Assembly: GCA_902563555.1 (NCBI GenBank)
Contig: CACEXM010000001.1
Coordinates: 1 to 64,000, forward strand
DNA: 64,000 nt
DNA from: an uncultured Pelagibacteraceae bacterium
GTDB taxonomy: Bacteria; Pseudomonadota; Alphaproteobacteria; Pelagibacterales; Pelagibacteraceae
Direction: 5' to 3'
The notes under the pieces are model-generated. The model saw only the letters and a program-made list of their open reading frames with translations, was not told the DNA's origin and made no database searches. Made by a program: the position numbers and the translations under genes. Every line of letters starts with the position of its first letter. Position 1 is the first letter of the stretch. Shown one piece after another: positions 20,168 to 44,378 of this stretch.

Positions 20168-20217
20168 GTATAATTTGTCGCTTAAGTTTTTTAAGAGAAT
20201 AATTGTATATTTTTTTC

Positions 20218-21459
20218 ATGAATAAAAATTTAAATGTTGGAATAATTGGTGCTGGTATTCAAGGTATTTCTAATGCTTTATTTTTACAAAAAAAAGGTTT
20301 TAAAGTAACCATATTTGATCGAGAAAAACCTGGCAGTCCTGTCGCTTCATATGGTAATGCTGGTCATTTTTCACCATACGCATCCTTATCGCTAAATAGA
20401 ACAGATATTTTAATGGATGTACCTGCAATGTTATTAAGTTCAACTGGTCCTTTAGCTCTTAAATGGAATTATGTTCCAAAAATGATTCCTTGGTTTTTAA
20501 AATTTATCTTTAATACAACTAAAAGTAAGATGATGCATACTGCAAAAAATATGCACCAAATTTTAGATTTGGCTCTTCCCGCTTATGATGAATTATTTGA
20601 AGAAATTAGTCTCGAAAACTTAGTTGAAAATAAAGGTATTCTTTATGTTTGGAATGATAAAAATCTAAAAAGTAGAGAACTAGAAATCAAAGTAAGAGAA
20701 GAGCTAGGTGTTAAACAGCAACTCGTAGGTAAAAAAGATATACATGATTTAGAACCAAATCTTAAAAAATTTTATCATGCAGGAGTTTACTACCCATACG
20801 CAAGACATGCTAGGAATCCAAAAAAGATTTTATTAAAACTTTTTGAACTTTTTTTAGCTAAAGGCGGAAAATTTCAAAATAAGAATATTACAAATATAAA
20901 TTTTGAAGAAGAGAGTCCTGTTTTGGTAAGTGAAAATGAATGTTTCAGCTGTGATAAGATTGTAATAACTTGTGGCGCTTTTTCCAAGAAACTGACTGAT
21001 AAATTGGATGAAAAAATTCCATTAGATACAGAGAGAGGTTACCATGTTCATTTTAAAGATTGTGATCATCTTTTAAATAGACCAGTCATATTTCATAATA
21101 GAGGTTTCGGTATAACGCCAATGGAACAAGGATTAAGAGTAGTTGGCACTGTTGAATTTGGTGGTTTAGATAATCCTGCCTCAAAATCAAGAATTAATAA
21201 TTTAATTAATAATGCAAAGTATATGTTAGGGGATCTTCCTGAGCATGAAGATGAGTGGTTAGGCTTCAGGCCAACATTACCAGATTTTTTGCCGGTAATG
21301 GGTCCATCTAAAAATTATAAAAACGTGTTTTATTGTTTTGGACATCATCATTTAGGATGGACATTGGGTCCAATATCTGGAAAGATAGTTTCTGGAATGA
21401 TAGCTAAAGAAAATACAAATTTAAACTTAGATCCTTATAGCTCAAGAAGGTTTTCTTGA
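20218..21459 (+). CDS. FAD-dependent D-amino-acid dehydrogenase-like oxidoreductase (DadA family)
   Basis: Probably oxidises a D-amino acid or similar secondary amine to a 2-oxo acid, feeding electrons to the membrane. 413 residues from ATG 20218; a TTG 15 nt upstream is less likely. GxGxxG dinucleotide motif IIGAGIQGIS near residue 10, then SYGNAGHFSPY, the DadA-type flavin segment, and a C-terminal FGHHHLGWTLGPISGKIV that closes the FAD site. The exact substrate is not readable. It leads a run with an EamA transporter, a 2-hydroxyacid dehydrogenase and a deacetylase-like enzyme. Confidence 0.8.
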   Translation: MNKNLNVGIIGAGIQGISNALFLQKKGFKVTIFDREKPGSPVASYGNAGHFSPYASLSLNRTDILMDVPAMLLSSTGPLALKWNYVPKMIPWFLKFIFNTTKSKMMHTAKNMHQILDLALPAYDELFEEISLENLVENKGILYVWNDKNLKSRELEIKVREELGVKQQLVGKKDIHDLEPNLKKFYHAGVYYPYARHARNPKKILLKLFELFLAKGGKFQNKNITNINFEEESPVLVSENECFSCDKIVITCGAFSKKLTDKLDEKIPLDTERGYHVHFKDCDHLLNRPVIFHNRGFGITPMEQGLRVVGTVEFGGLDNPASKSRINNLINNAKYMLGDLPEHEDEWLGFRPTLPDFLPVMGPSKNYKNVFYCFGHHHLGWTLGPISGKIVSGMIAKENTNLNLDPYSSRRFS

Positions 21460-21463: not shown

Positions 21464-22360
21464 GTGTCTAATAAAAACTATTTAGCATACCTATTTTTAG
21501 TCCTTGCAACATTTTGTTGGTCAGGCAACTTTATAGTTGGAAAATTTGCAACATTATATGAAATTCCTCCTTTAACTTTAAATGTTTTTAGGTGGATTTC
21601 TGTTTGGTTTATTCTGATACCTTTTACCTACAAAGAAATTTTCAAAAATCTATCCTATATAAAAAAAAATTGGCTTGTAATTAGTTTTATGGGAGTAATT
21701 ACAATAAGCACGTTTAATTCTGTAGTTTATTTTGCTCTTAATTATACACAAGTAATTAATGCTGTGCTTATGCTTTCAGCTATTCCTGCAGCAACAATTG
21801 TTCTTTCATCATTAATGAAAATTGAAAAAACAAATATTTTTCAGTTAATTGGATTATTAGTTTCAATACTTGGAATAGGCTCAATAATTTCAAATGGAGA
21901 TTTTCAAAAGATAATTTCTTTAGATTTTAATAAAGGTGATATATGGATGTTAGTTTGTGTAATTACCTGGTCTCTATATTCAACTTTACTAAAGAAAAAT
22001 AAGTTTAAATTTTCACAATTTACATTGATACAATTAATGGTTTCGGTAGGGATAATTTTTTTAATTCCACAATTTTTTTATGAAAAATCAATTGGCCTTG
22101 AATTAAATACAGATAAAAATTTTTTTTTAATATTGACTTATGTAGCAATTTTTCCGGCTATAGCTGCTTATTATTTTTGGCAAAAAGGAATTGAGATAAT
22201 TGGTCCAAATCGAGCTTCTATGTTTATTCAATTAATGCCGTTGTTTAGTGCCATTATGGCTATTATTATTTTCAAAGAAAAATTTGAAATGTATCATTTT
22301 GTAGGAGCATTTTTCATATTGTCTGGCATTTATTTATCTAATAAAAAAGTTTATGCTTAA
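21464..22360 (+). CDS. EamA-family (DMT superfamily) transporter
   Basis: 298 residues, about ten TM helices made of two EamA repeats (about 8-140 and 155-295). The N-terminal FCWSGNFIVGKF and the second-repeat SMFIQLMPLFSAIMAIIIFKEK are typical. Such proteins usually export amino acids or metabolites. The start is GTG, 4 nt after the DadA-like gene, and the end overlaps the next gene by 8 nt, so the three are coupled. Substrate unknown. Confidence 0.85.
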   Translation: MSNKNYLAYLFLVLATFCWSGNFIVGKFATLYEIPPLTLNVFRWISVWFILIPFTYKEIFKNLSYIKKNWLVISFMGVITISTFNSVVYFALNYTQVINAVLMLSAIPAATIVLSSLMKIEKTNIFQLIGLLVSILGIGSIISNGDFQKIISLDFNKGDIWMLVCVITWSLYSTLLKKNKFKFSQFTLIQLMVSVGIIFLIPQFFYEKSIGLELNTDKNFFLILTYVAIFPAIAAYYFWQKGIEIIGPNRASMFIQLMPLFSAIMAIIIFKEKFEMYHFVGAFFILSGIYLSNKKVYA

Positions 22361-23303
22361 AGTTGCAATTTTAGATGATTATCAAAATGTTTCACAACAA
22401 TTTGTGGATCTAAAAAAATTATCAGGAAAATATGAAATAAAAATTTTTAGTGAGCCTTTTGTAGATGAAGCTGATGCTATAGAGCAATTAGCAGAATTTG
22501 AGGCTCTCCTTATAATGAGAGAAAGAACTCCTATAACAAAAAATTTGATAGAAAATTTAACTAAATTAAAATTTATAATCACTAGCGGTTTAAGAAATAA
22601 ATCAATTGATTTAGATGCCGCAAAAAAAAGAAAAATTTTTGTCAGTGGTACTGAGAGCAATACTAATCCAACACCTGAATTAACTTGGGCATTAATACTT
22701 GGGTTAGCAAGAAACTTAAAAGAGGAAATTGATAATATGTACCAAGGTTATTGGCAAACTTCAGTTGGTGTAGAATTAAAAGGTAAAATTCTTGGTTTGA
22801 TTGGCCTTGGAAAAGTAGGAACGCAGGTTGCTAAGGTTGGCAAGGCATTTGGTATGCAGGTGATGGCTTGGAGTGAAAATTTAAATTTAGACACCTGTAA
22901 AGAATTAGACGTTCTGCCTTGTAGTAAAGAAGATCTAATAAAAAACTCTGACTTTTTATCTATTCATGTACAAGGTGGAGAGAGATATAAAAATTGTATT
23001 ACTCTTAAAGAAATGGATAAGATGAAAAAGACCTCATTTTTAATTAATACCTCTCGGGGTCCCATAATAAACGAAGACGATTTGATAATTGCATTATCAA
23101 CAAATGTAATTGCAGGTGCTGGATTAGATGTTTATGAAAAAGAGCCTTTATCAGAAAATAATAAATTAAGATTTTTACCAAATGCTTTATTAACACCTCA
23201 CATTGGATATGTGACGGCTGAAAATTATCACGTTTATTTTACTCAAATGATCGAGTCACTAGAGGCTTGTGTTAATGGGGAACCAATTCGGGTGATTGAG
23301 TAA
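22353..23303 (+). CDS. D-isomer-specific 2-hydroxyacid dehydrogenase
   Basis: 316 residues with the NAD domain inserted in the substrate domain. Rossmann motif GLIGLGKVGTQVAK near 145-158; catalytic Arg in NTSRGPIINEDDL, Glu in DVYEKEPL and His in LTPHIGYVT. The family contains phosphoglycerate, glyoxylate and other 2-oxo-acid reductases; lack of an ACT domain argues against classic SerA. Coupled to the DadA-like oxidase upstream, it might reduce the oxo acid that enzyme makes (inference). Confidence 0.85.
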   Translation: MLKVAILDDYQNVSQQFVDLKKLSGKYEIKIFSEPFVDEADAIEQLAEFEALLIMRERTPITKNLIENLTKLKFIITSGLRNKSIDLDAAKKRKIFVSGTESNTNPTPELTWALILGLARNLKEEIDNMYQGYWQTSVGVELKGKILGLIGLGKVGTQVAKVGKAFGMQVMAWSENLNLDTCKELDVLPCSKEDLIKNSDFLSIHVQGGERYKNCITLKEMDKMKKTSFLINTSRGPIINEDDLIIALSTNVIAGAGLDVYEKEPLSENNKLRFLPNALLTPHIGYVTAENYHVYFTQMIESLEACVNGEPIRVIE

Positions 23304-23304
23304 A

Positions 23305-24198
23305 ATGCATTTACCTGTAGTTAATCATGAAGATTATTTTGCTAAAATTGGCGATGATCATAAATTTCCTATTAATAAATTTGGTGATCTTGCAGATTTT
23401 TTATTAAAGAATAAGATAGTAACAAAGTTTCATAAACCATATCCATGTTCAGATGAAACTTTAAAGGGTGCTCACTCTGAAAAATATATTAAAGAAATTA
23501 AAAATAAAACACTAGATGAAATTGGAGTTAAAAAAATTGGTTTTCCATTAGTTGATAGCGTAGTTCAAAGGTCGTTAGTTGCAACAGGAGGGACAGTGCT
23601 TGCCTCTAAACTTGCAATAAATCATGGTATTGCTTGTAATACTGCAGGAGGAAGTCATCATGCGAATTATGATAGTGGTGCAGGATATTGTGTTTTTAAT
23701 GATGTAGCGGTTGCTTCTCAATTTCTATTAGATAGAGAATTGGCAAAAAGAATATTAATTGTTGATTTGGATGTTCATCAAGGAAACGGTAATTCAGATA
23801 TATTCAAGGATAATAAAAATGTTTTTACTTTTAGTATGCATTCAAAATCAAATTATCCTGCGAAAAAATCAATTAGCGATTGCGATGTTGAGCTTGAAAA
23901 TGATACGGAGGATAAGGAATACTTAAATATACTTAAATTTCATTTAAATGAATTAAATAAAGAAAATTTTGATTTTGTTTTCTATATTGCAGGGGTTGAC
24001 ATCCATTTTAATGATCGCCTAGGTAAATTAAAGATTTCAGATGATGGTATAAAAAAAAGAGATGAAATTGTTACAGAAAATTTTTTTTCTAAAAGAATTC
24101 CTCTTTGTGGAGTTTTAGGAGGTGGTTACAATAAAAATATTGATAAACTTGTTGAATTACACTCTTTTTTACACCAGTCATGTGCTAAATTAATTTAG
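23305..24198 (+). CDS. Histone-deacetylase-like Zn amidohydrolase
   Basis: 297 residues from ATG 23305, one base after the preceding stop; a TTG at 23296 would overlap. Deacetylase-family signatures are SHHANYDSGAGYCVFNDVAVA (His-His and Asp/His relay), DLDVHQGNG (Zn ligands Asp and His) and AGVDIHFNDRLGKL. In bacteria such enzymes deacetylate acetylpolyamines or small amides; the substrate here is unknown. Confidence 0.85.
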   Translation: MHLPVVNHEDYFAKIGDDHKFPINKFGDLADFLLKNKIVTKFHKPYPCSDETLKGAHSEKYIKEIKNKTLDEIGVKKIGFPLVDSVVQRSLVATGGTVLASKLAINHGIACNTAGGSHHANYDSGAGYCVFNDVAVASQFLLDRELAKRILIVDLDVHQGNGNSDIFKDNKNVFTFSMHSKSNYPAKKSISDCDVELENDTEDKEYLNILKFHLNELNKENFDFVFYIAGVDIHFNDRLGKLKISDDGIKKRDEIVTENFFSKRIPLCGVLGGGYNKNIDKLVELHSFLHQSCAKLI

Positions 24199-24832: not shown

Positions 24833-25147
24833 CTATAGATAATCACCTTTTTTAATTTTACTAGATATTTGTTTTCGAGAGTATTCAAATTTTTTTCTAT
24901 GTTTGATACTTTTTTCATGAACCCTTTTTCTCCATAATCTAAATGATGAAGGTTTGAGTGATCTTCGCATTATTCTTATGACATCAGATTCTCCGTAACC
25001 TGTTTTTTTTTTAATTTCCTCAAATGTGATCCTATCAGCCCAGGCAGCCCATATGACCCAATCTGGACTTTCAACACTTGGCTCAGGATTTTTGACTTTA
25101 GTGATAGGCCTGTGACCTTTTTTTTTCATAAATCCCTTATATTTCAA
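24833..25147 (-). CDS. TIGR03643-family small basic protein
   Basis: 104 residues, rich in Lys/Arg. Core SPDWVIWAAWADRITFEEIKKKTG followed by VIRIMRRSLKPSSFRLWRKRV matches the TIGR03643 family of unknown function as I know it. A second ATG near 25129 (MKKKGHRP) is an equally good start. The basic, helix-turn-like middle could bind nucleic acid, but that is not established. Upstream member of a pair with grxC. Confidence 0.75.
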   Translation of the reverse strand: MKYKGFMKKKGHRPITKVKNPEPSVESPDWVIWAAWADRITFEEIKKKTGYGESDVIRIMRRSLKPSSFRLWRKRVHEKSIKHRKKFEYSRKQISSKIKKGDYL

Positions 25148-25194
25148 AAAAATCTATAATGCATTTTTTTTTAAGACCTGATATATTGTGATTT

Positions 25195-25250
25195 GATAGT
25201 CCTTCTTAGCCATCTTTAGCTCCCGGTTTTTAAGGACTATCTTTTTTTTT
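25195..25250 (+). terminator. Strong hairpin plus T9 tract immediately before a lysE start codon (attenuator candidate)
   Basis: GATAGTCCTT (25195-25204) pairs perfectly with AAGGACTATC (25232-25241) across a 27-nt loop, and nine Ts (25242-25250) follow directly, ending at the ATG of the LysE-family gene. On the opposite strand there is no T-run, so it acts on + strand transcripts. No + strand gene lies upstream closer than msrB (24572). It therefore either ends a short leader/sRNA or attenuates lysE. Confidence 0.75.
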
Positions 25251-25865
25251 ATGCTCCCATTGGATTTTATCCTTTTTTTACAGATCATTATTTTTTTATT
25301 TATTACACCTGGTACCCCTAGAATAGTAATCATTTCTTATTCAATGAATTATGGAGTTAAAAATTGTATATGGACAGCTTTTGGAGATGTTACCGCAAAT
25401 TTACTACAGGCAACTTTAGTAATTTTTGTCATCGGCTCTTTTTTATCTGACAATCCAAATATCCTAAATATTTTTAAATGGATTGGTGTAATTTATTTAA
25501 TTTATTTAGCTTATGATGTTTACAAATCTTCACCAAAAGATGTTAATTCGAAAATAATTAGCTCAAAAGGAACTTTTTCTTTTTATAAAGATGGTTTTTT
25601 AGTTGCAGGCACAAGTCCTAAGGCTTGGTTGTTCTTTCCTTTAATATTCCCTCAATTCATTGACTTTAGTACCAATTATATCGTCCAGTTTTTTATTTTA
25701 ATAACTACTTATGTTGTTTTAGATTTTATTTCATTAATTGGTTACGCTCTGTTGGCACAAAAACTTATTACATGGATAAAAGCAAATCCAAAAACAATTA
25801 ATACAATCTCAGCGAGTGTTTTGGTAATCATAGCCTTAATTATTATTGTAACACAACAGTATTAG
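25251..25865 (+). CDS. LysE/RhtB-family amino-acid exporter
   Basis: 204 residues with about six TM helices. N-terminal LFITPGTPRIVIISYSMNYG is the LysE/RhtB signature (TPGP form altered to TPGT). The later SPKAWLFFPLIFPQF is also typical. The ATG abuts the T-tract of the terminator hairpin, so there is no room for a Shine-Dalgarno site. A later start would remove the signature. The substrate, probably an amino acid, is unknown. Confidence 0.85.
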   Translation: MLPLDFILFLQIIIFLFITPGTPRIVIISYSMNYGVKNCIWTAFGDVTANLLQATLVIFVIGSFLSDNPNILNIFKWIGVIYLIYLAYDVYKSSPKDVNSKIISSKGTFSFYKDGFLVAGTSPKAWLFFPLIFPQFIDFSTNYIVQFFILITTYVVLDFISLIGYALLAQKLITWIKANPKTINTISASVLVIIALIIIVTQQY

Positions 25866-25891
25866 CACATATGCAAAAGTTTTTTTGCCTC

Positions 25892-25920
25892 TTGCAATAC
25901 TTTAAAATTATTTATTTAAT
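25892..25920 (+). promoter_or_regulatory. Putative promoter of the first branched-chain-type transporter operon
   Basis: TTGCAA (25892-25897), 17-nt spacer and TTTAAT (25915-25920), giving a leader of about 29 nt before the ATG at 25956. A good AAAAGGAAAT ribosome site follows. Confidence 0.4.
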
Positions 25921-25955
25921 TAAGTATTAATTAATTAATAACAAAAGGAAATAAA

Positions 25956-27194
25956 ATGAAAATAAGTAGAACAATCTTGAGTTTTATTTCTGCAATAGTA
26001 ATTTTATTTTCAACTTCTGTTACATCATTTTCAAAAGTTGTTGGAGATAAGATTGTCTTAGGTGCTGCCATTTCATTAACTGGTAAATACTCATCTAATG
26101 GTGTTCATACACAAAACGGTTATAATATGGCTGTTGATAGAATTAACAACATGGGTGGAGTAAAAGTTGGTGGAAAAACTTATAAGTTTGAAATCATTTA
26201 TTACGATGATGAATCAAACCCAAAAAGAGCAGCTCAATTAGCAGAAAGATTAATCTCACAAGATGGTGTTGAGTTTATGCTTGGACCATACAGTTCAGGT
26301 TTAACAAAAGCAATTGCACCAGTTACAGAAAAATATGGTGTTCCAATGGTTGAAGCAAATGGTGCTTCTAGATCTTTGTTTACAAAAGGTTACAAATATC
26401 TATTTGCAGTATTAGCTCCAGCAAACTTATATCTTGATGTTGCTATAGATTTAGCAGTTGAAAAGAATAACGGTAAACCAGTAACAGTTGCAATGGCATT
26501 TGAACAAGATGCATTTTCTCAAGACGTAAGATTGGGAGTGCTTGATGCAATTAAAAGAACAGGCTCTAAAAAAGTAATAGACGATAAATTACCGAAAGAG
26601 TTAAATGATATGGCTGCTACATTAGTTAAGGTAAAACAAATGAAGCCAGATGTTCTTGTAGTATCAGGTCATACAAAAGGAGCACTAACTGCAATTAGAC
26701 AAATAGCTGAAATGAAAGTAGATGTGCCTATGCTAGCGATGACACACTGCGATGCTGCGAAATTATCAAAACAACATGGTAAGAATTCACAGTATGCTTT
26801 ATGTGCATCACAATGGCATAAGACATTAACTTATAAAGATAATTTCTTTAAAGATGGTATGAAATATGCAGCAGACTTTGAAAAAGAGTTTGGTTATGAT
26901 CCGCCATATCAGTCAGCAGAGTCTTCAGCTGCGCTGTTAGTATTTAAAGATGCATTTGAAAGAGCAAATTCTTTTGATCAGAAAAAAGTACGAGATGCTC
27001 TTGCAGCTACTAACATGCAAACATTTTATGGAAATATAAAGTTCGCAGAAGGTGGTCAGAATGTTGACAAGCCTATGGTTCTTTTCCAGGTAATGTGTGA
27101 TGGCTCAGGAAAATGTGAAAACAAAGTTGTAGCTCCAACTAAATGGGCTTCAGCGAAGTTAATTCACCCAATTCCTAAGTGGTCTGAAAGATAA
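25956..27194 (+). CDS. HAAT-type ABC transporter substrate-binding protein (LivK-like)
   Basis: Periplasmic binding protein of a branched-chain-amino-acid-type importer. 412 residues with a signal peptide (about 1-27), then LGAAISLTGKYSSNGVHTQNGYNMAVD, the classic type I binding-protein opening, and two alpha/beta lobes. Longer than E. coli LivK (about 370). The true ligand could be an amino acid, amide or organic acid. A terminator hairpin sits between it and the permease genes, as expected for a binding protein made in excess. Confidence 0.88.
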   Translation: MKISRTILSFISAIVILFSTSVTSFSKVVGDKIVLGAAISLTGKYSSNGVHTQNGYNMAVDRINNMGGVKVGGKTYKFEIIYYDDESNPKRAAQLAERLISQDGVEFMLGPYSSGLTKAIAPVTEKYGVPMVEANGASRSLFTKGYKYLFAVLAPANLYLDVAIDLAVEKNNGKPVTVAMAFEQDAFSQDVRLGVLDAIKRTGSKKVIDDKLPKELNDMAATLVKVKQMKPDVLVVSGHTKGALTAIRQIAEMKVDVPMLAMTHCDAAKLSKQHGKNSQYALCASQWHKTLTYKDNFFKDGMKYAADFEKEFGYDPPYQSAESSAALLVFKDAFERANSFDQKKVRDALAATNMQTFYGNIKFAEGGQNVDKPMVLFQVMCDGSGKCENKVVAPTKWASAKLIHPIPKWSER

Positions 27195-27207
27195 AAACTA
27201 ATCTATA

Positions 27208-27242
27208 AATACCCCCTAAATTCTAGGGGGTATTTTTTTTTA
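27208..27242 (+). terminator. Intra-operon terminator between binding protein and permease genes
   Basis: AATACCCCCTA (27208-27218) pairs with TAGGGGGTATT (27224-27234) around a 5-nt loop, followed by T to 27241. Probably partial, allowing more binding-protein mRNA than permease mRNA. Confidence 0.85.
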
Positions 27243-27252
27243 AGAGTTGATT

Positions 27253-28146
27253 ATGGATTTCATGGTTTTCCAATATCCAATGATTACTGTTCAAGCTTGC
27301 TTGGACGGATTACTTCTTGGTATTTTATTTGCTTTGATTGCATACGGCATGGCATTGCAATGGGGAGTTATGAATATCATAAATATTGCTCAAGGTGACC
27401 TAGTCATTCTTGGAGGGTATATTGCTTACTTCATGTATCTATATGGAATTCACCCAGCCTGGGGTGTAATTGTCTCTCCAATAATAATGTATTTTATTGG
27501 TGTCGGAATTTACAAATTAGTAATTAATAAAGTGGTCGATCGAGATTTATTCATCTCCATTCTTGCAACTTTTGGAATAAGCATTTTATTTATGCAATTA
27601 ATGAATTTTGCATTTGGCGCAGATGTTGTTCTAGCTAATTCAGGTTATGGAACAACTATGTTATTTGATAATAATGTTACTTTACCTAACTCAAAAATCT
27701 TTTCAGCAGTAATCAGTATTGTTTTTGCAATTGGTTTAGTTATTTACATGAAAAAATCAAAATTAGGGAGAGCAATTCGTGCAACAGCACAAAACTCAAG
27801 AGCTGCAAAGATTTTAGGAGTTGATACTGAGAAAGTTTATGCAGCTACATTTGGAATTAATGCTGCGCTTTGCGGAGTAGCAGGTGCTTTAATATCTATT
27901 ACATTTACAATCCATCCATACATGGGATTACCATATACAATAAGGTCTTTTATGATTGTAATTGTTGCAGGACTAGGAAATTTACCAGGAGTAGCAATGT
28001 CTGGAATGGGACTTGGAGTTTTTGAAGAATTTGCAGACTATATTTTAGGAACTGAATTTAGAATAGGTGCAGTATTTTTATTATTAGTTTTAATTCTCGT
28101 TTACAGAAGATTTAAACTGTCTAGGAAGAGAGAGTATTTAAAATAA
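27253..28146 (+). CDS. HAAT-type ABC transporter permease (LivH-like)
   Basis: 297 residues from ATG 27253, preceded by AAGAG at 27242-27246; a TTG at 27247 is less likely. About eight TM helices. The family core GMALQWGVMNIINIAQGDLVILGGYIAY and the cytoplasmic coupling segment GRAIRATAQNSRAAKILGVDTEKVYAATF are clear. It forms the membrane channel with the LivM-like protein encoded next, with a one-base stop/start overlap. Confidence 0.92.
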   Translation: MDFMVFQYPMITVQACLDGLLLGILFALIAYGMALQWGVMNIINIAQGDLVILGGYIAYFMYLYGIHPAWGVIVSPIIMYFIGVGIYKLVINKVVDRDLFISILATFGISILFMQLMNFAFGADVVLANSGYGTTMLFDNNVTLPNSKIFSAVISIVFAIGLVIYMKKSKLGRAIRATAQNSRAAKILGVDTEKVYAATFGINAALCGVAGALISITFTIHPYMGLPYTIRSFMIVIVAGLGNLPGVAMSGMGLGVFEEFADYILGTEFRIGAVFLLLVLILVYRRFKLSRKREYLK

Positions 28147-29195
28147 TGAGTAAAAATATTCTTTTATATTCAGCAATTCTAATCTTTGGATTGATAGCAC
28201 CATTTGTTTTTCCAGCATTTAAAGTTCAATTATCCATTCTATGTGTATTGATAGTTTTAGCTACAACTTGGAATATTCAGGGTGGTGAAATGGGATACAA
28301 TACATTCGGGAATATACTATTTTATGGTTTGGGTATGTATTTATGTGCATCTGTCCAAGTTGGAATGTTTTTCCCTCTTGCTGAATGGACAGAAAGTGGA
28401 GGTGAAAAAACTTTTGTTCATACTCCAGCTCAATTTTTTCAAGGTATGGCTGTTGGACTTGTTGTAGCTGCAGTAGTTCCAACGATAGTAGCTGGGTTAA
28501 TTGGTTATGCGATTTTAGGTTTAAGAGGACATTATTTTGCTATTTGTACTTTAGGTTTAGGTGTTGCAGCGGGAGAAATTTCTGGAGGTATAGAAATTAT
28601 AGGTGCAGGTCAGGGATTTACCACTCCTCCATTTCCTGAGGTTGGCGGTCTTGAGGCAAGAGGAGAATTTTTTTACTTTTTAAGTTTTGGAGCTCTCATA
28701 TTAACTTTTGTTGCTGTACGAGCAATTTATTCAACAAGATTTAGACTAATCTTAAATGCGATTAGAGATAATGAAGATAAAGCTGAGGCGATGGGTATTG
28801 AAACAATGAAATATAAAATTATTGGTTGGATGGTATCCGCATTCTTTTGTGGTTTAGCTGGTGGCATTATGGGAGGACTAGTTGGATACATCGACTCAAC
28901 TGATGTTGCTTTTGATGGTAGAGAAATGGGAGTGTTCATGGTTTTGATGGCAATCCTAGGAGGCAAAGGAACTTTATGGGGACCAGTTATTGGTGCAACA
29001 GTATTTCATATTTTTAAAGAAGGGTTTTGGACATTCTTTTTAGGTTGGCAGTATGTTGCTTTAGGAGTTTTAATTGTTGTAATCGTAATTTATTTTCCTG
29101 AAGGGATTATGGGCTGGTTAAGAGAAAAATATCCCGAAAAATTTGGTGAAGTAATTGATGAAAAAGATCGAAAGGCTCAAGTAGAACTTAAATGA
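28146..29195 (+). CDS. HAAT-type ABC transporter permease (LivM-like)
   Basis: 349 residues, about nine TM helices. LRGHYFAICTLGLGVAAGEISGG and the coupling loop FRLILNAIRDNEDKAEAMGIETMKYKIIGWMVSAFFCGLAGG mark it as LivM type. Overlaps the upstream permease gene by 1 nt and the ATPase gene by 4 nt (ATGA), indicating tight coupling. Confidence 0.92.
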   Translation: MSKNILLYSAILIFGLIAPFVFPAFKVQLSILCVLIVLATTWNIQGGEMGYNTFGNILFYGLGMYLCASVQVGMFFPLAEWTESGGEKTFVHTPAQFFQGMAVGLVVAAVVPTIVAGLIGYAILGLRGHYFAICTLGLGVAAGEISGGIEIIGAGQGFTTPPFPEVGGLEARGEFFYFLSFGALILTFVAVRAIYSTRFRLILNAIRDNEDKAEAMGIETMKYKIIGWMVSAFFCGLAGGIMGGLVGYIDSTDVAFDGREMGVFMVLMAILGGKGTLWGPVIGATVFHIFKEGFWTFFLGWQYVALGVLIVVIVIYFPEGIMGWLREKYPEKFGEVIDEKDRKAQVELK

Positions 29196-29932
29196 GTATT
29201 TTAGAGGTTAACAATGTTAGTAAATCTTTTGGCGGAGTAAAAGCTAATGTAGATATATCAATGTCAGTAGAAAAAGGTAAGATATTTGGACTTATCGGTC
29301 CAAATGGGTCTGGTAAAACAACACTGTTCAACTCTATTGTTGGAACATATCCGATAGATAATGGTTCAATAAAATTTAATGATAAAGAAGTCTCAGACTT
29401 ACCTGTACCTGTTATTGCAAAACTTGGTTTACTTAGAACTTTTCAGCAAACTAGAATTTATGGTAAATTAAATTGTGTAGATAATATGTTAATTAGTCAC
29501 AAAGGTAGTGATGAAAGTATATTAAAAATATTCTCAAAAATTCCACAGGATTTAACAGAAAAAGCCGAAAATCTTTTGAACTTCGTTGGACTTTATCAAA
29601 AAAGAAAATTAAGGGCTGGAGATTTATCTTTTGGTCAACAAAAACTTCTAGAGTTAGCAATGGCTCTGATGAATGAACCTGAAATGTTATTATTAGATGA
29701 ACCTACTGCAGGGATCAATCCTACTCTTATAAATGGTATCATCGATAGATTGATTAAAGTAAATCAAGATTTTGGTATTACACTTTTAGTAATTGAACAT
29801 AATATGAGAGTTATTATGCAACTAGCAGAAAGTATTTATTGTTTAGCACATGGTAAGATGCTTGCTAATGGGACACCTGACGAAATTAAAAATGATAAAC
29901 GTGTAATAGATGCGTACTTAGGAGCACAATAA
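29192..29932 (+). CDS. HAAT-type ABC transporter ATPase (LivG-like)
   Basis: 246 residues. Walker A GPNGSGKTT near 37-45, signature LSFGQQKLLELAMALM (usual LSGGQ has a Phe here), Walker B MLLLDEPTAG, switch His in VIEHNM. The long LivG-type middle part (FQQTRIYGKLNCVDNMLI) separates it from LivF. One-base overlap with the next gene. Confidence 0.92.
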   Translation: MSILEVNNVSKSFGGVKANVDISMSVEKGKIFGLIGPNGSGKTTLFNSIVGTYPIDNGSIKFNDKEVSDLPVPVIAKLGLLRTFQQTRIYGKLNCVDNMLISHKGSDESILKIFSKIPQDLTEKAENLLNFVGLYQKRKLRAGDLSFGQQKLLELAMALMNEPEMLLLDEPTAGINPTLINGIIDRLIKVNQDFGITLLVIEHNMRVIMQLAESIYCLAHGKMLANGTPDEIKNDKRVIDAYLGAQ

Positions 29933-30717
29933 TGTCAAATCAATATGAAGTTTTAGGAAAAGCTCCGGTAGCAGAAGACTTAAAAAAACTATCTCCAAAT
30001 AATATTCATCTTACTATTAAAAATATGAATGCTGGTTATGGTAAAATGGAAATTCTTCATAATTTCGATTTATTTGTCAGTAAAGCTCAATCCTTATGTC
30101 TGATTGGACCAAACGGAGCTGGTAAATCCACTATTCTTCACTCTATTTATGGGTTTACAAATATTTTTTCAGGGCAAATAGAAATAGATGGAAAAGAAAT
30201 CACAAATTTAACACCAGCTGAAAAATTGAAAACTGTTGGAATAGCATACATACTCCAGGATAATTCTGTCTTCCCAGATATGACTGTGGAGGAAAATTTA
30301 TTAATGGGTGGATTTATTAAAGAAAAAACAGAAGAGTCATACGCGGAAGCTGAGCGAATTTTTGAGAAATACGAAAGATTAAGAAACAGAAGAAACCAAC
30401 CTGCAAAAGTATTATCAGGTGGAGAAAGAAGATTGTTAGAAATTTCAAGAGCATTGGTAATGAAGCCATCAGTTTTATTAGTTGATGAACCATCAATTGG
30501 TTTGGAGCCAAGGTATATTGATATGGTATTTGAAATTTTAAGAGATCTCCAAGAGAATGAAAAAAAGACAATTATTTTAGTTGAACAAAATGCTAAAAAA
30601 GGACTCGAGTTCGCAGATATTGGTTACGTGCTAGTATCTGGTCAGACTGCAATTGCAGGTAAAGGGGATGATCTTTTAAATAATCCGGATGTTGGTCGCC
30701 TGTTTTTGGGTGGTTAA
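29932..30717 (+). CDS. HAAT-type ABC transporter ATPase (LivF-like)
   Basis: 261 residues. Walker A GPNGAGKST, signature LSGGERRLLEISRALV, Walker B VLLVDEPSIGLEP, and VEQNAKKGLEFAD in the switch region, typical of LivF. An extra N-terminal leader of about 25 residues (SNQYEVLGKAPVAED) precedes the fold. Its stop shares a base with the azlC start, so exporter genes follow without a break. Confidence 0.92.
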   Translation: MSNQYEVLGKAPVAEDLKKLSPNNIHLTIKNMNAGYGKMEILHNFDLFVSKAQSLCLIGPNGAGKSTILHSIYGFTNIFSGQIEIDGKEITNLTPAEKLKTVGIAYILQDNSVFPDMTVEENLLMGGFIKEKTEESYAEAERIFEKYERLRNRRNQPAKVLSGGERRLLEISRALVMKPSVLLVDEPSIGLEPRYIDMVFEILRDLQENEKKTIILVEQNAKKGLEFADIGYVLVSGQTAIAGKGDDLLNNPDVGRLFLGG

Positions 30718-31421
30718 TGATTAGTACAAAATATTTTTTAAAAGGCTTCAGTGCTATAAAAGGTGTTGGTAGTCCTGCCATAGCTTTAGGTGCAAGTTTT
30801 ATAGCTATAGGCGCACTATTAAAAAATTTAGGTTTCACAATTCAACAAAGTATTTTTTCAACTTTCCTCACATATGCTTTACCTGGCTCACTAGTGATGG
30901 CTGAGTCAATGTTAATTGGAGCATCTTTGATAAATATTTTTTTAGCCGTTTGGTTGGTTAATGCGAGATTATATCCAATGACTGTTGCGCTAATGCCGTT
31001 GTTGATGCATCAAGACCAGCCAAGATGGAAATATTATTTGTCCTGTCATTTTATAGCAGTTTCTTCCTGGCTGATAATGAAAGATAATTATGAAAATATA
31101 GAAAAAGAAAATAGAATTGATTTTTGGATTGGAATAGGAGTAGCAACTTGGTCTGTTGCGATATTCTCAACAATTGTTGGCTATGTAGCCTCTGATTTTT
31201 TTAACAAAGACATACTTATTGGTCTAGCAATTATAAATCCAATATATTTTATATGCATGATGGTTGGAGCTATGAAAACTTTTCAAATAAGTTTATCGGT
31301 TATTTTGGGTGCAACCCTTGGTCCTATTTTTTATTTTTTATCAGCTGAGTGGTGTATCTTGTTTGGTGGCTTCACTGCTGGAACTATAGCTTTTTTAATT
31401 GGAGAAAAAAATGGCAAGTAA
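30717..31421 (+). CDS. azlC: AzlC-family membrane protein (branched-chain amino-acid exporter subunit)
   Basis: 234 residues, five to six TM helices. The AzlC opening KGFSAIKGVGSPAIALGASFIAIGALLKNLGF and the NARLYPMTVALMPLL motif are characteristic. With AzlD it exports branched-chain amino acids and related compounds in studied bacteria. Here it sits in the same coupled run as an importer of the same compound class. Confidence 0.85.
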   Translation: MISTKYFLKGFSAIKGVGSPAIALGASFIAIGALLKNLGFTIQQSIFSTFLTYALPGSLVMAESMLIGASLINIFLAVWLVNARLYPMTVALMPLLMHQDQPRWKYYLSCHFIAVSSWLIMKDNYENIEKENRIDFWIGIGVATWSVAIFSTIVGYVASDFFNKDILIGLAIINPIYFICMMVGAMKTFQISLSVILGATLGPIFYFLSAEWCILFGGFTAGTIAFLIGEKNGK

Positions 31422-31734
31422 TATCTTAATTGTTATATTTGTCACATCTCTAGCCACGTATTTGTCAAGATTTTTAGGAGTTGTTAGTTCAGAAAAAATT
31501 AAAGAAACTTCAAAAATGTTCAGATGGTTTAATTGTCTTGCTTATTCAACTCTTGCTGCATTAATTGCTCGAATAGTTATTTTTCCATTAGGATCTTTAG
31601 CAGAAGTAGATTTATCAGTCAGAATTTTTGTGGTTTCTTTATGTATAATTATTTTCTTTTTAACTAAAAAAAATTTAGTTTACCCTACAATTTTCTCTGC
31701 TATCATACTATCTCTTATTACAAGTTTTGTATGA
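31411..31734 (+). CDS. azlD: AzlD-family small membrane protein
   Basis: 107 residues from ATG 31411, which has a good GGAG site; a TTG at 31399 is less likely. Four TM segments, with VTSLATYLSRFLGV near the start, as in AzlD. Partner of AzlC. Overlaps azlC by 11 nt and the glaH-like gene by 4 nt, so the three are translationally linked. Confidence 0.82.
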   Translation: MASNILIVIFVTSLATYLSRFLGVVSSEKIKETSKMFRWFNCLAYSTLAALIARIVIFPLGSLAEVDLSVRIFVVSLCIIIFFLTKKNLVYPTIFSAIILSLITSFV

Positions 31735-32645
31735 GCGAAAAGATTGATGGATTTCAAATAGAAAAACACGAACTATCATCTAGAATTGTCAATATCGACA
31801 TCGGCGATGAAGTTTTAAGTAAACTCATTTTTCCATTTAATAAGTTCGATATTACTGCTCTAGAATACAAACCTTTTACAAGATTCACTATTGCAAAAAG
31901 TTTAGACGACTTGAGTGACAATAAATTATCAAAATTTTTAAATGAAATTTTAAAAGATCGAAATACAGGATGTTTTATTATTAAACCTCAAAATTTAAAT
32001 TCAAAAATTGATGATAATTTTTTAGTTAAATTGTCAACTGCCATCTCTCATTTAGTAGGTATACCTAATTACGATGCTATGGCTGGTAAATATTATGCAA
32101 GATTTCATGTAAAGCACGTCGATAAAAGCGACTCTTATTTAAGGAAAGCGTATACAAACATGGATCTTCATACAGATGGCACTTACGTAAAAGAGAAAAC
32201 TGATTGGTTATTAATGTCAAAATTAGAGGAAAGAAATGCAGAAGGTGGTGAAACTGCCATGTTGCATCTCGATGATTGGGAACATTGTGATGAATTGTTT
32301 AATGATCCAACAGGACAGGAAAATTTTCTTTGGGGATCACCAAAAAGTAAAAATATAGACTATAAAGTTGAACATCCTATATTTTCAACAGATCAAAACG
32401 GTAGAGCTCAAATTTCTTATATAGATCAGTTTCCAGAACCAAAAAATATGAAACAAGGTATTTTTTTACAAAAGTTATCTGACAACTTAGAAGAGAGTAA
32501 AAATAAGATAATCACAAAACTTCCAGTAGGATCTTCAATTGTAGCAAACAACTATTTTTGGCTTCATGGACGAAGACCTTTTAAAGAAAATAAAGATTTA
32601 AGTAGAGAATTATTGAGAATAAGGGGTTCTTTTTTTATTAATTAA
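31731..32645 (+). CDS. glaH: Glutarate 2-hydroxylase GlaH (CsiD family), Fe(II)/2-oxoglutarate dioxygenase
   Basis: Hydroxylates glutarate to L-2-hydroxyglutarate with O2 and 2-oxoglutarate in lysine/glutarate catabolism. 304 residues, close to E. coli GlaH, which I recognise along most of its length: ALEYKPFTRF (44-53), FDAMSG-like YDAMAGKYYARFHVKHVD (114-131), then DLHTDGTYV with Fe ligands H147 and D149, and WLHGRRPF with H279. LRIRGSFF near the end holds the 2-oxoglutarate-binding Arg. ATGA overlap with azlD puts it in the transporter operon. No L-2-hydroxyglutarate oxidase of LhgO type is in the window. Confidence 0.85.
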   Translation: MSEKIDGFQIEKHELSSRIVNIDIGDEVLSKLIFPFNKFDITALEYKPFTRFTIAKSLDDLSDNKLSKFLNEILKDRNTGCFIIKPQNLNSKIDDNFLVKLSTAISHLVGIPNYDAMAGKYYARFHVKHVDKSDSYLRKAYTNMDLHTDGTYVKEKTDWLLMSKLEERNAEGGETAMLHLDDWEHCDELFNDPTGQENFLWGSPKSKNIDYKVEHPIFSTDQNGRAQISYIDQFPEPKNMKQGIFLQKLSDNLEESKNKIITKLPVGSSIVANNYFWLHGRRPFKENKDLSRELLRIRGSFFIN

Positions 32646-32675
32646 TATAAACAATTCTTTATAAGTATTTAAATT

Positions 32676-33443
32676 ATGAAATTAGGTTTTATTGGAACGG
32701 GTAAAATTACATCATCAGTTATAACTGGTATTTGTAATTCATCTTTGAAATATAACAGGATATTTGTTTCTTCACGGAATAATAAAATCTCCAAAAATCT
32801 CAAAAAAAGATTTAAAAAAATTTCTATCGAAAAAAATAATCAAAAAATAATTGATAGTTGCAGTTGGATATTTCTAGCTGTCACACCAACTGTAGGTAAA
32901 AAAATATTAAAGGATCTTAAATTTAGATCAAATCAAACTGTAATAAGTTTTATTTCAACAATCACGATACCACAATTGAAAAAAATAATAAAAGTTAAAT
33001 CAGACATTGTAAGAGCGATACCGTTACCTCCAATTTCATTAAAAAAAGGACCAGTTCCGATTTGTCCTCCAAATAAAAAAGTAAAAAGTTTTTTTGATAA
33101 ACTTGGCTCAACTGTAGAGATTAAAAATGAAAAGTTATCAATTAATTTTTGGTCAACATCAGGGATGATGGCTGCTTATTATGAAATTTTAAAGATCATG
33201 AGTGATTGGTTGGTAAAAAAAGGAGTAAAGAGACAAGATGCACAGAAATATATTACTTCTCTATTTGTAGCTTTGTCTGAAGATGCAGTTGTAAACTCAA
33301 AGAAGGAACTCAAATATTTAGTAAAAGAGTCTCAAACCCCTAAAGGATTAAATGAGCAAGGTCTTAAACTTATGAGAAGTAAAGGTGTTTATAATTCAGT
33401 TGTAAAAACTTTGAATGATATACACAAAAGACTAAGCAAATAA
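32676..33443 (+). CDS. Pyrroline-5-carboxylate-reductase-like protein (ProC family)
   Basis: 255 residues. NAD(P) motif KLGFIGTGKITSSVITGI at the start, then RAIPLPPISLKKGPVPI and a C-terminal dimerisation domain. Family members reduce pyrroline-5-carboxylate to proline or related cyclic imines. It is more diverged and very Lys-rich compared with housekeeping ProC, so a different imine substrate is possible. 30 nt after glaH and 3 nt before the next ABC ATPase. Confidence 0.72.
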   Translation: MKLGFIGTGKITSSVITGICNSSLKYNRIFVSSRNNKISKNLKKRFKKISIEKNNQKIIDSCSWIFLAVTPTVGKKILKDLKFRSNQTVISFISTITIPQLKKIIKVKSDIVRAIPLPPISLKKGPVPICPPNKKVKSFFDKLGSTVEIKNEKLSINFWSTSGMMAAYYEILKIMSDWLVKKGVKRQDAQKYITSLFVALSEDAVVNSKKELKYLVKESQTPKGLNEQGLKLMRSKGVYNSVVKTLNDIHKRLSK

Positions 33444-33446: not shown

Positions 33447-34232
33447 ATGTCACAAAATATTTTAGAAATTAATAATTTGTCAAAATATTTTGGAGGACTA
33501 GCGGCAGTATCGGAATGTTCTCTTAAAGTTAAAAAGGGAACTATTACAGGTATTATTGGACCGAATGGTTCTGGCAAAACCACTTTATTTAACCTTATTG
33601 CTGGAAATTTAAAATCCTCTGCTGGCAGTGTGATTTTTAATAATGAAAATATTACTGATGTTCCTTCCTATGAATTATTTTCAAAAGGATTGCTAAGAAC
33701 TTTTCAAATAGCTCATGAATTTACAAATTTATCTGTTTTAGAAAACTTAATGATGGTTCCAGGGAATCAATCTGGAGAAAAATTGGTTAATGCCTTGTTA
33801 AAACCCTCATTAGTTGCAAAAGAAGAAAGTCAAATTAAAGAAAAGGCTATGGAAGTTATTAATTTTCTTAATCTTAGCCATTTAAAAAATGAGTTGGCGG
33901 GAAATTTATCTGGGGGACAAAAAAAATTGTTAGAATTAGGTCGAACAATGATGGTTGATGCAAAATTAGTATTGTTAGATGAGGTAGGTGCTGGTGTAAA
34001 TAGAACTTTACTAAAGGATCTTGGAACAGCTATTGAAAAACTTAATAAAGAAAAAGGTTACACTTTTTGTATGATCGAACATGACATGGATTTTATAGGA
34101 AGATTATGTAATCCAGTGATCGTAATGGCAGAAGGTTCAGTTCTTTTCGAAGGTTCAGTTGAGGATGCAAAAAAAGATGAAAAAGTTATTGAAAGTTATT
34201 TAGGTAGAGGCTCAAAATTAAAGGATAATTAA
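33447..34232 (+). CDS. HAAT-type ABC transporter ATPase, second system (LivG-like)
   Basis: 261 residues. Walker A GPNGSGKTT near 38-46, signature LSGGQKKLLELGRTMM, Walker B LVLLDEVGAGV (Glu-Val instead of Glu-Pro), switch IEHDMDFIGR. First gene of a second importer block ordered ATPase-ATPase-permease-permease, unlike the first system. Stop abuts the next start. Confidence 0.9.
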   Translation: MSQNILEINNLSKYFGGLAAVSECSLKVKKGTITGIIGPNGSGKTTLFNLIAGNLKSSAGSVIFNNENITDVPSYELFSKGLLRTFQIAHEFTNLSVLENLMMVPGNQSGEKLVNALLKPSLVAKEESQIKEKAMEVINFLNLSHLKNELAGNLSGGQKKLLELGRTMMVDAKLVLLDEVGAGVNRTLLKDLGTAIEKLNKEKGYTFCMIEHDMDFIGRLCNPVIVMAEGSVLFEGSVEDAKKDEKVIESYLGRGSKLKDN

Positions 34233-34940
34233 ATGGCATTTTTTGAAGGGAATAACATGACCGGTGGATATGGAAATGGCCCAGACATAATTAATTCATG
34301 TTCAGTAAATGTTGAAAGAGGAGAAATAGTATCGATCCTTGGACCTAACGGAGCTGGAAAATCTACCGCGATGAAAGCAATGTTAGGCTTGTTAAATTTA
34401 AAATCTGGTTCAGTAATTATCAATGGTAAAGATATTTCAAAACTTTCTCCACAAGACAGAGTAAAGGAAGGCATCTCATTCGTTCCTCAAACAAAAAATG
34501 TTTTTGCAGGTATGACAGTGGAGGAAAATTTAGAGATGGGTGCTTTCTTAATAAACGCCGAATTTAAAGAGACTATTAATGAAATCTTTGACTTATTTCC
34601 AATTCTAAAAGAAAAAAAAAATCAATTAGTTGGGGAGTTATCTGGAGGACAAAGACAACAAGTTGCATTAGGTAGAGCACTTATGATCAAGCCCTCTGTA
34701 TTAATGTTGGATGAACCAACTGCTGGCGTATCACCTATTGTGATGGATGAATTATTTGATCATATCGTAAAAGTAAAAAGAACGAACGTAGCAATTTTAA
34801 TGGTTGAGCAAAATGCAAAGCAAGCATTAAATATTTCTGATAGAGGTTATGTTTTGGTGACTGGGGAGAACCGGCACTCTGGAACTGGAAAAGAACTACT
34901 AGAAGACCCAAGAGTAAGAAGCTCATTTCTAGGCGGTTAA
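34233..34940 (+). CDS. HAAT-type ABC transporter ATPase, second system (LivF-like)
   Basis: 235 residues. Walker A GPNGAGKST, signature LSGGQRQQVALGRALM, Walker B VLMLDEPTAGVSP, and VEQNAKQALNISDRGYVL. Family-typical length, without the leader seen in the first system's LivF. Separated from its neighbours by 0 and 1 nt. Confidence 0.92.
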   Translation: MAFFEGNNMTGGYGNGPDIINSCSVNVERGEIVSILGPNGAGKSTAMKAMLGLLNLKSGSVIINGKDISKLSPQDRVKEGISFVPQTKNVFAGMTVEENLEMGAFLINAEFKETINEIFDLFPILKEKKNQLVGELSGGQRQQVALGRALMIKPSVLMLDEPTAGVSPIVMDELFDHIVKVKRTNVAILMVEQNAKQALNISDRGYVLVTGENRHSGTGKELLEDPRVRSSFLGG

Positions 34941-34941
34941 T

Positions 34942-35952
34942 ATGGACTTTGTAAATGCAATTATACTTTTATTAAATTACATTTTTGTTCCAGCTTTAGC
35001 ATACGGATCTCAACTGGCACTTGGTGCAATATTTGTAACATTGATTTACGGAATTTTACGGTTTGCGAACTTTGCTACAGGGGACATGATGTCTTTTGGG
35101 ACAATGTTTGTGATTTTATTCACTTTCTATTTTCAGTCTATTGGAATTAGTTTTGGGGTTTTACCTACAGCCCTTCTAGCAATTCCTTTTGGTATTATTT
35201 TTATGGTTGGCTACATGTTGATAATAGATAAATTAGTTTTTAAATATTACCGAATAAACAAAAGTCCCCCTGTGCAATTAGCGATGGTAAGTATTGGCGT
35301 GATGTTTGTTACTCAGGCAGTGGTTCGTATAATTATTGGCCCTTCAGATAGAAGATTTTTTGATGGAGAAAAATTTTTAATTAAAGCTGGTGAATTTAAA
35401 GAAATGACAGGATTAAACGAGGGTCTTGCAATAAAATCTACTCAAGTTATTACGATTATTGTTACGTTGATTTTAGTTTCAACTTTGTTTTGGTTTTTAA
35501 ATAAAACTAAGACTGGAAAAAGTATGAGAGCATACTCTGATAACGAGGATTTAGCATTATTATCAGGTATCGATCCCAAAAAAATTGTCATGATAACTTG
35601 GGTCATAGCAGGCATTCTTGCAACAATTGGTGGTGCTTTATATGGTTTAGATAAAAGCTTTAAACCATTCACCTACTTTAATAATATGCTACCAATATTT
35701 GCAGCGGCTATAGTGGGCGGCATTGGTAATCCATTTGGAGCCTTTCTCGGTGGATATGTAATTGCCTTCTCTGAAATATTGTTAACTTACGCTTATAGAA
35801 AATTTTTCATGTATGTTTTACCTGAAAGTATGGAGCCAGATGGTCTAATTCAATTACTCTCTACAGATTATAAATTTGCAGTATCTTTTTCAATCTTAGT
35901 CATCGTCTTACTTTATCGTCCATCAGGTATATTTAAAGGGAAGGTGTTGTGA
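34942..35952 (+). CDS. HAAT-type ABC transporter permease, second system (LivH-like)
   Basis: 336 residues, about eight TM helices. FVTLIYGILRFANFATGDMMSFGTMFVI is the LivH-type opening; GKSMRAYSDNEDLALLSGIDPKKI is the ATPase-coupling loop. Longer than typical LivH because of extended loops near 140-165 and 290-310. Overlaps the next permease gene by 4 nt. Confidence 0.9.
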   Translation: MDFVNAIILLLNYIFVPALAYGSQLALGAIFVTLIYGILRFANFATGDMMSFGTMFVILFTFYFQSIGISFGVLPTALLAIPFGIIFMVGYMLIIDKLVFKYYRINKSPPVQLAMVSIGVMFVTQAVVRIIIGPSDRRFFDGEKFLIKAGEFKEMTGLNEGLAIKSTQVITIIVTLILVSTLFWFLNKTKTGKSMRAYSDNEDLALLSGIDPKKIVMITWVIAGILATIGGALYGLDKSFKPFTYFNNMLPIFAAAIVGGIGNPFGAFLGGYVIAFSEILLTYAYRKFFMYVLPESMEPDGLIQLLSTDYKFAVSFSILVIVLLYRPSGIFKGKVL

Positions 35953-37319
35953 GAAAAAATTTAAATGTAATTGCTGCGTACAGTATAATGATGGGGCTGA
36001 TTATCCTTGTTGGTATATTCCAGTCTTGGAACATAGCTTTATCAATATTTAATCTTTGTCTAATTTCAGCAGTAATGACAATTGGTGCCAACATTCAATG
36101 GGGTTATGCTGGTCTTATTAACTTTGGGATAATGGGTTTTACAGCTTTAGGTGGTTTAGCAGCTGTTTTAATCTCAGTAGATCCTGTTCAAGAAGCATGG
36201 AGTGTAGGTGGATTTAATATTTTATTCAGTCTTTTTCTTATAACAGCAATGGTATTAGCTGTCAGGTATATTTTAAAAAATTATAAGAAATCAAAAAACA
36301 GAACTTACATAGTAGCTGCAATTATAATTTTAGGAATTATAATCATAAGATTTATTTCTGAACCAGGAATTGAAGCTATTGAGGGAGTTAATCCTGCAAA
36401 AACTGGTTTTCTTGGTGGATTAGGTCTTCCAATTATTTTTTCTTGGGTTGTTGGAGCTTTTTTTGCAGGTGGATTAGCTTTTGTTATAGGAAAAGTTGCC
36501 TTAGGTTTAAGAGCTGATTATCTTGCTATAGCAACTTTACTAATATCAGAAATTGTTATTGCAATTATAAAACACGAAGATTGGTTAACAAGAGGTGTTA
36601 AAAATGTAATTGGATTAAAAAGACCTGCACCTTATGAGGTAAATTTGCAACAAACAGAATGGTTTATAAGTCTTGTTGAAAAATTTAACTCAAGTAAATT
36701 AAATCTAATTACTGATTTAACAGAAAGACAAGCTACACTAAATCAACTTGTAATCGAGGGATCATCAGTTTTTGTAAAACTTTGTTACTCTGGATTATTT
36801 TTAGTTGTAGTAATTATTTTATTAATCTTAACTCAAAAAGCTCTTTATTCTCCTTGGGGAAGAATGATGAGAGCAATTAGAGATAACGAGGAAGCAGCTA
36901 ATGCAATGGGCAAAAATGTAGTTAAACAACACCTTTTAATTTTTGTTTTAGGTTCAGCCATTGTTGGTATTGCGGGTGCCATGTTAGTTACTCAAGATGG
37001 CTTGTTTACCCCAGGAAGTTATAGACCTTTGAGATATACTTTTTTAATTTGGGTAATGGTTATTATTGGTGGAAGTGGAAATAACTTCGGTGCAATTCTT
37101 GGAGGTTTTGTTGTTTGGTTCTTATGGATTGAGGCTGCACCAATTGGTCTTTACTTAGTAAATTTAACTACTGCTGGATTAGATGATACACACTTTTTAA
37201 AAGTACACTTAATTGAAAGTGTTCCATATTTTAGATTTTTAATGATGGGAGTAGGTCTCTTGGTCATAATGAGATATAGACCAAAAGGTATACTTCCTGA
37301 AAAAATAGAAATAAAATAA
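35949..37319 (+). CDS. HAAT-type ABC transporter permease, second system (LivM-like, enlarged)
   Basis: 456 residues, about 100 more than usual LivM. Core pieces NIQWGYAGLINFGIMGFTALGG, LGLRADYLAIATLLISEIV and GRMMRAIRDNEEAANAMGKNV are intact. The extra length lies in two inserts: a TM-containing part at about 95-155 and a hydrophilic loop at about 215-275 (PAPYEVNLQQTEWF onward). GTG is the start codon. Ends the 13-gene same-strand run. Confidence 0.88.
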   Translation: MRKNLNVIAAYSIMMGLIILVGIFQSWNIALSIFNLCLISAVMTIGANIQWGYAGLINFGIMGFTALGGLAAVLISVDPVQEAWSVGGFNILFSLFLITAMVLAVRYILKNYKKSKNRTYIVAAIIILGIIIIRFISEPGIEAIEGVNPAKTGFLGGLGLPIIFSWVVGAFFAGGLAFVIGKVALGLRADYLAIATLLISEIVIAIIKHEDWLTRGVKNVIGLKRPAPYEVNLQQTEWFISLVEKFNSSKLNLITDLTERQATLNQLVIEGSSVFVKLCYSGLFLVVVIILLILTQKALYSPWGRMMRAIRDNEEAANAMGKNVVKQHLLIFVLGSAIVGIAGAMLVTQDGLFTPGSYRPLRYTFLIWVMVIIGGSGNNFGAILGGFVVWFLWIEAAPIGLYLVNLTTAGLDDTHFLKVHLIESVPYFRFLMMGVGLLVIMRYRPKGILPEKIEIK

Positions 37320-40780: not shown

Positions 40781-40782
40781 TT

Positions 40783-44374: not shown

Positions 44375-44378
44375 ATTT

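Follow-up and report, generated by a model that had tools for sequence, protein, structure and literature searches.

The 64,000-nucleotide (nt) window analysed here (assembly GCA_902563555.1, contig CACEXM010000001.1, positions 1 to 64,000) belongs to an uncultured SAR11 bacterium of the Pelagibacter lineage, whose own genome comprises 934 kb in 25 contigs and is 78% complete. Matches of 99-100% to single-cell SAR11 records assign the window to the Pelagibacteraceae. According to the open reading frame (ORF) map, it carries a block of eight co-directional + strand genes encoding a Liv-like ATP-binding cassette (ABC) importer, an AzlCD-type exporter and the glutarate 2-hydroxylase GlaH. The block consists of the following elements:

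25956..27194, + strand: livK-like substrate-binding protein (Peripla_BP_6) of 412 amino acids, from the ORF map and Pfam
27207..27235, + strand: terminator- or attenuator-like hairpin plus T tract in the livK/livH gap, with a strong 12-pair stem
27247..28146, + strand: livH-like permease (BPD_transp_2), from the ORF map and Pfam
28146..29195, + strand: livM-like permease (BPD_transp_2), overlapping livH by 1 nt, from the ORF map and Pfam
29192..29932, + strand: livG-like ATPase (ABC_tran), overlapping livM by 4 nt, from the ORF map and Pfam
29932..30717, + strand: livF-like ATPase (ABC_tran), overlapping livG by 1 nt, from the ORF map and Pfam
30717..31421, + strand: divergent AzlC, overlapping livF by 1 nt (PF03591, 77.8 bits, cut-off 32.1)
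31411..31734, + strand: AzlD, overlapping azlC by 11 nt, with an alternative TTG start at 31399 (PF05437, 48 bits)
31731..32645, + strand: glaH (csiD), glutarate 2-hydroxylase of 304 amino acids (CsiD, 463 bits; NCBIfam GlaH equivalog, 454 bits)

From livH to glaH, successive genes overlap by 1, 4, 1, 1, 11 and 4 nt, counting azlD from the ATG at 31411, in exact agreement with the chain of 1-11 nt overlaps given in a preliminary description of this DNA. The azlD/glaH junction is a 4-nt ATGA overlap. The livK gene is uncoupled, separated from livH by a 52-nt gap that contains the hairpin. This gap measures 51-66 nt in most relatives, and a hairpin is present in the relatives displayed, including a sister genus of the same family in which the stem sequence differs. 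The hairpin likely sets the binding protein in excess over the permease.

GlaH scores 454.3 bits against the NCBIfam equivalog NF002814 (cut-off 333 bits) and shares 44% identity with E. coli GlaH, in which His160, Asp162 and His292 are assigned to iron, Arg309 to 2-oxoglutarate and Arg311 to glutarate (Knorr et al., PMC6265302). All six active-site residues checked are retained in 102 GlaH sequences. The Fe(II) triad H147, D149 and H279 (E. coli His160, Asp162 and His292), already pointed out in the preliminary description, is invariant in the 102 alignment rows, as are R296 and R298 (E. coli R309 and R311). By profile, the protein is assigned as a true glutarate hydroxylase, and no sign of an altered substrate is apparent in its sequence. 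It thus resembles the product of the E. coli glaH(csiD)-lhgD(lhgO)-gabDTP operon with GlaR/CsiR (PMC6265302; NC_000913) in enzyme family, intact active site and degree of identity. Unlike that operon, SAR11 glaH lacks gabD, gabT, gabP and glaR as neighbours and stands beside an ABC importer and AzlCD, in a genus without LhgO.

The arrangement is widely conserved. The order livF-azlC-azlD-glaH recurs in 91 of 101 distinct glaH loci, with all eight genes present in 82 of the 101; four of the ten loci without livF-azlC-azlD are contig ends. Two closed genomes of the sister genus retain the order lysE-livKHMGF-azlC-azlD-glaH, at identities to the window of 81% for livK, 42% for azlC and 58-59% for glaH. 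Across 74 Pelagibacter genomes, glaH and the divergent azlC are both found in 39, glaH only in 5, azlC only in 2 and neither in 28 (p = 4e-13, from hand-copied lists and with kinship ignored). The linkage of transporter, AzlCD and glaH exceeds chance and holds over family-level divergence, and the conserved unit that they form is new here. It is this linkage that is conserved and not the exact azlD/glaH overlap, because an overlap of 4 or 1 nt occurs in only 65 of 109 loci; elsewhere, azlD and glaH are separated either by as many as ~46 nt or by an additional gene of about 170-346 codons, which in some loci encodes a pentapeptide-repeat protein. The 11-nt azlC/azlD overlap is present in 104 of 111 loci. 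GlaH itself occurs in 77 of 121 Pelagibacter-genus genomes (counted by hand, many of them incomplete). In a sample of 385 genomes spread across the Alphaproteobacteria, strong GlaH matches are confined to the Pelagibacteraceae and one divergent case, and the genomes searched from the next family of the order hold no GlaH at comparable strength.

The site filled by the block is variable; it is bordered on the left by a small gene (24833-25147) and on the right, 30 nt behind glaH, by proC. Two further features adjoin the block:

25251..25865, + strand: LysE-family exporter, directly 5' of the block and co-directional (PF01810, 81.5 bits)
32676..33443, + strand: proC, pyrroline-5-carboxylate reductase, right border of the variable site (NF005063, 321 bits, cut-off 254)

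The LysE exporter gene is mostly retained with the block and adjoins it in the sister genus too, while proC also borders the empty site of the closed genome G380. A blast search of G380 from end to end found none of lysE1, livK, livH, livM, azlC, azlD and glaH, and the matches to livG and livF are low-identity paralogues only; G380 retains both borders, a second Liv operon and the Pot genes (PotA and PotD homologues). Several states of the site are observed among relatives: liv and glaH without azlCD (L129, L158), azlCD and glaH without liv (L097), glaH without liv and azlCD (L132, L168), liv and azlCD with glaH missing at the site (L163, L165), and none of the block (L156, L159-L162, L164). 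In L158, L173 and L174, the site corresponding to 25147-32676 holds pentapeptide-repeat, ROK-kinase or unknown genes. The block is mostly gained or lost as a unit, yet its parts are separable. At a different site, L127 carries a glaH (9531-10424) beside genes for a ZnuA-like protein, a SHOCT protein and a glucose/sorbosone dehydrogenase.

Structurally, the importer follows the HAAT-type plan, consisting of a Peripla_BP_6 binding protein, two BPD_transp_2 permeases and two ABC_tran ATPases, a five-gene architecture shared with LivKHMGF and the HAAT importers represented by UrtABCDE and SAR11_0655. Unlike in these systems, the binding protein of the window is only ~20% identical and lacks LivJ T102, Y202 and E226, and the LivK, LivH, LivM, LivG and LivF scores all fall far below the NCBIfam equivalog or subfamily cut-offs (e.g. 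90.5 vs 477 bits). In LivJ, S79, T102, Y202 and E226 hold the alpha-carboxylate and alpha-ammonium groups of the ligand. At the corresponding positions, mapped with some uncertainty by alignment with E. coli LivJ/LivK, the window LivK keeps S79 and has A, H and T in place of T102, Y202 and E226, respectively, a pattern invariant in 75 orthologues. The LivK2 protein of the second Liv operon (33447-37319 and 38716-39897 (-)) keeps S79, T102 and Y202, and this operon is therefore the better candidate for amino-acid import. The sequence and fold neighbours of the window LivK are UrtA, LivK and SAR11_0655 (8WCH), the last of which is annotated 'Probable Leu/Ile/Val-binding' and has bound L-pyroglutamate. 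A branched-chain ligand appears unlikely for the window LivK, because the alpha-amino-acid residues of LivJ/LivK are missing and because of its kinship with SAR11_0655. As the AlphaFold model is of moderate quality (pLDDT 68, pTM 0.57) and the fold search yields a family and no pocket, we dropped a ligand call from the structure and keep the assignment at the family level. For SAR11_1361, whose livJ2 region is probably the counterpart of these genes in strain HTCC1062, text searches of the literature yielded no ligand.

AzlC and AzlD together form the PF03591 and PF05437 pair, encoded by overlapping genes, as in the AzlCD/YgaZH amino-acid exporters. In contrast to the canonical AzlC encoded further along the same contig, at 97.6 kb, to which it is ~22% identical, the operonic AzlC is fixed behind an importer and falls far below the AzlC equivalog TIGR00346 (23.6 vs a cut-off of 332 bits). 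It forms one clade with the sister-genus AzlC, apart from the canonical copy. This AzlCD likely has a dedicated cargo that is tied to the block.

The preliminary description had reported that LhgO, the expected partner of GlaH, is missing from the window; this is confirmed, and the absence extends much further. Neither the bacterium's own, 78%-complete genome nor any of seven Pelagibacter genomes with a completeness of 96-100% contains an LhgO that scores over the family cut-off, and none is found at 1e-30 in the Pelagibacter-genus genomes searched. With a sister-genus LhgO as query at 1e-15, matches occur in 0 of 201 Pelagibacter-genus genomes, in a search that carried no built-in positive control. 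The family model does find LhgO in the sister genus (313 bits in G271 and 312 bits in G548, cut-off 299), where lhgO overlaps a histone-deacetylase-like gene (L188/L189). In Pelagibacter, the same deacetylase-like gene is overlapped by 8 nt by a D-2-hydroxyacid dehydrogenase gene (window 22353-24198), which is present in nearly all glaH-containing regions that reach its site and absent in six loci without glaH. We considered this dehydrogenase (22353-23303) as a substitute for LhgO and rejected it as a strict partner of GlaH, as it is found at 87% identity in the closed, glaH-less genome G380 and its family has the wrong stereochemistry. An LhgO disguised as another flavin adenine dinucleotide (FAD) oxidoreductase was likewise rejected: the best matches in the own genome reach 59 and 54 bits against the cut-off of 299, the latter being a 417-amino-acid protein that is sarcosine-oxidase-like by eye, and the FAD enzyme at 20203-21459 is D-amino-acid-dehydrogenase-like, with no similarity to LhgO. 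In five gammaproteobacterial-type loci, all with an E. coli-like GlaH, lhgD adjoins glaH. The next family of the order (f2) shows the reverse situation, an LhgO-like protein of ~200 bits, under the cut-off, and no GlaH. Without LhgO, each GlaH turnover spends 2-oxoglutarate and forms succinate and L-2-hydroxyglutarate, and therefore requires an as yet unrecognised oxidase or export. The genus-wide lack of the terminal enzyme is new here and is the strongest new point of this analysis.

Upstream of GlaH, a route to glutarate that does not pass through the importer is plausible. The genome encodes three class III aminotransferases, one of them an omega-aminotransferase over its cut-off (527.5 vs 500 bits), and two Orn/Lys/DAP-type decarboxylases, both partial sequences that match the diaminopimelate decarboxylase model best and stay under its cut-off. 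Genes for a PotABCD-type polyamine importer, assigned by eye, lie at 42004-46492 of the window. Beside them, at 40034-41952, are EutA-like (208 bits, cut-off 318) and ectoine-hydrolase-like (459 bits, cut-off 613) genes. The available part of a study on the strains HTCC1062 and HTCC7211 describes cadaverine uptake by both and postulates a lysine route to succinate, in which glutarate 2-hydroxylase, named 'gab', is placed after cadaverine (Noell et al. 2021, PMC8437039). SAR11 GlaH and the cadaverine-to-succinate route have thus already been proposed there. The scheme in that part lists ygaF (LhgO), for which no Pelagibacter orthologue is found here, and its text makes no mention of a linkage between GlaH and the importer and AzlCD.

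We tentatively postulate that livKHMGF-azlCD-glaH may constitute one inherited functional unit for the uptake and first-step oxidation of a lysine- or cadaverine-related C5 carboxylate, namely glutarate or a direct precursor, for instance 5-aminovalerate. The binding protein, whose amount would be set independently by the hairpin 3' of its gene, would capture a ligand other than a standard alpha-amino acid, and LivHMGF would import it. Should the ligand be an omega-amino acid, aminotransferases and aldehyde dehydrogenases of a general kind could convert it to glutarate, from which GlaH, with 2-oxoglutarate and O2, would produce L-2-hydroxyglutarate, succinate and CO2. A side product or excess of this pathway would leave the cell through the specialised AzlCD. 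What is imported, what AzlCD carries and what becomes of L-2-hydroxyglutarate are the parts of this scheme that we infer. The proposal builds on the profile, identity and catalytic residues of GlaH, including the glutarate-binding Arg, on the presence of the block in most glaH loci and in the sister genus together with its joint absence in G380, on the contrast between the window LivK and LivK2 at the LivJ positions, on the L-pyroglutamate held by the nominally Leu/Ile/Val-binding SAR11_0655, on the separate clade of the operonic AzlC, and on the omega-aminotransferase in the genome and the PotABCD-type genes in the window.

Several points weigh against this proposal. In the absence of LhgO, GlaH would drain 2-oxoglutarate. 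The mapping of the pocket residues is based on ~20% identity, and no glutarate- or aminovalerate-binding homologue of LivK was found. E. coli takes up glutarate via KgtP and not via a Liv-type system (PMC12622518). Finally, the parts come apart in the rare loci L129, L158, L132, L168, L163, L165 and L097, and GlaH can therefore work without this importer. A more specific version, in which a high-affinity ABC system dedicated to glutarate or 5-aminovalerate is operon-coupled to GlaH and a specialised AzlCD, and in which LhgO has been lost so that L-2-hydroxyglutarate is excreted into seawater or oxidised by an enzyme not yet known, is unlikely to hold in full.

The alternative that survives best, although we regard it as rather unlikely, is an operon of convenience: the ligand of the importer would be unrelated to glutarate, AzlCD would be its safety-valve exporter, and glaH would belong to the cadaverine/lysine route, supplied by the PotABCD importer encoded nearby, with co-transcription in a streamlined genome explaining the linkage. 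The cadaverine uptake described and the lysine route postulated in PMC8437039 fit this view, as do the loci L132 and L168, where glaH persists with neither liv nor azlCD, the L127 glaH, which lies elsewhere, and the broad amino-acid export by Bacillus AzlCD (PMC11005379). The retention of gene order over family-level divergence argues against it, and so does the joint absence of the block in G380, even though homologues of PotA and PotD persist there. It is improbable that SAR11 GlaH now acts on a different substrate, one that the importer supplies, with a product that enters metabolism without LhgO; the loss of LhgO and a gene context that is new relative to the glaH-lhgD pairs of the five gammaproteobacterial loci would suit such a shift, but every residue assigned to the binding of glutarate and 2-oxoglutarate is invariant and the equivalog score is far over its cut-off. 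Export of L-2-hydroxyglutarate by AzlCD, with the GlaH product discarded and succinate as the gain, is more doubtful still: the lack of LhgO in 201 Pelagibacter genomes, the direct coupling of azlCD to glaH and the distinct AzlC clade speak for it, but it would waste the carbon of 2-oxoglutarate, AzlCD is to our knowledge characterised for amino acids only, and the sister genus has LhgO yet keeps azlCD-glaH, so that azlCD did not arise as a replacement for LhgO.

Coming back to the proposed uptake and oxidation unit, the block is a real, conserved SAR11 operon. The preliminary suggestion that its importer handles lysine-derived compounds stands as to the linkage, and the retained glutarate Arg of GlaH, the missing LivJ-type residues and the genus-wide lack of LhgO are in keeping with it; the ligand it named, glutarate or 5-aminovalerate, is plausible rather than proven, and the rare loci break the unit. 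SAR11 are the most abundant bacteria of the ocean and the dominant heterotrophs of its surface, and the substrates of their few importers shape the use of dissolved carbon. For an importer that carries a branched-chain amino acid transport annotation, the operon provides a concrete hypothesis; it also exposes a gap, a conserved producer of L-2-hydroxyglutarate without a known consumer. L-2-hydroxyglutarate is toxic to many cells. If it is released, other microbes would encounter a toxic metabolite; if it is not, a new dehydrogenase awaits discovery.

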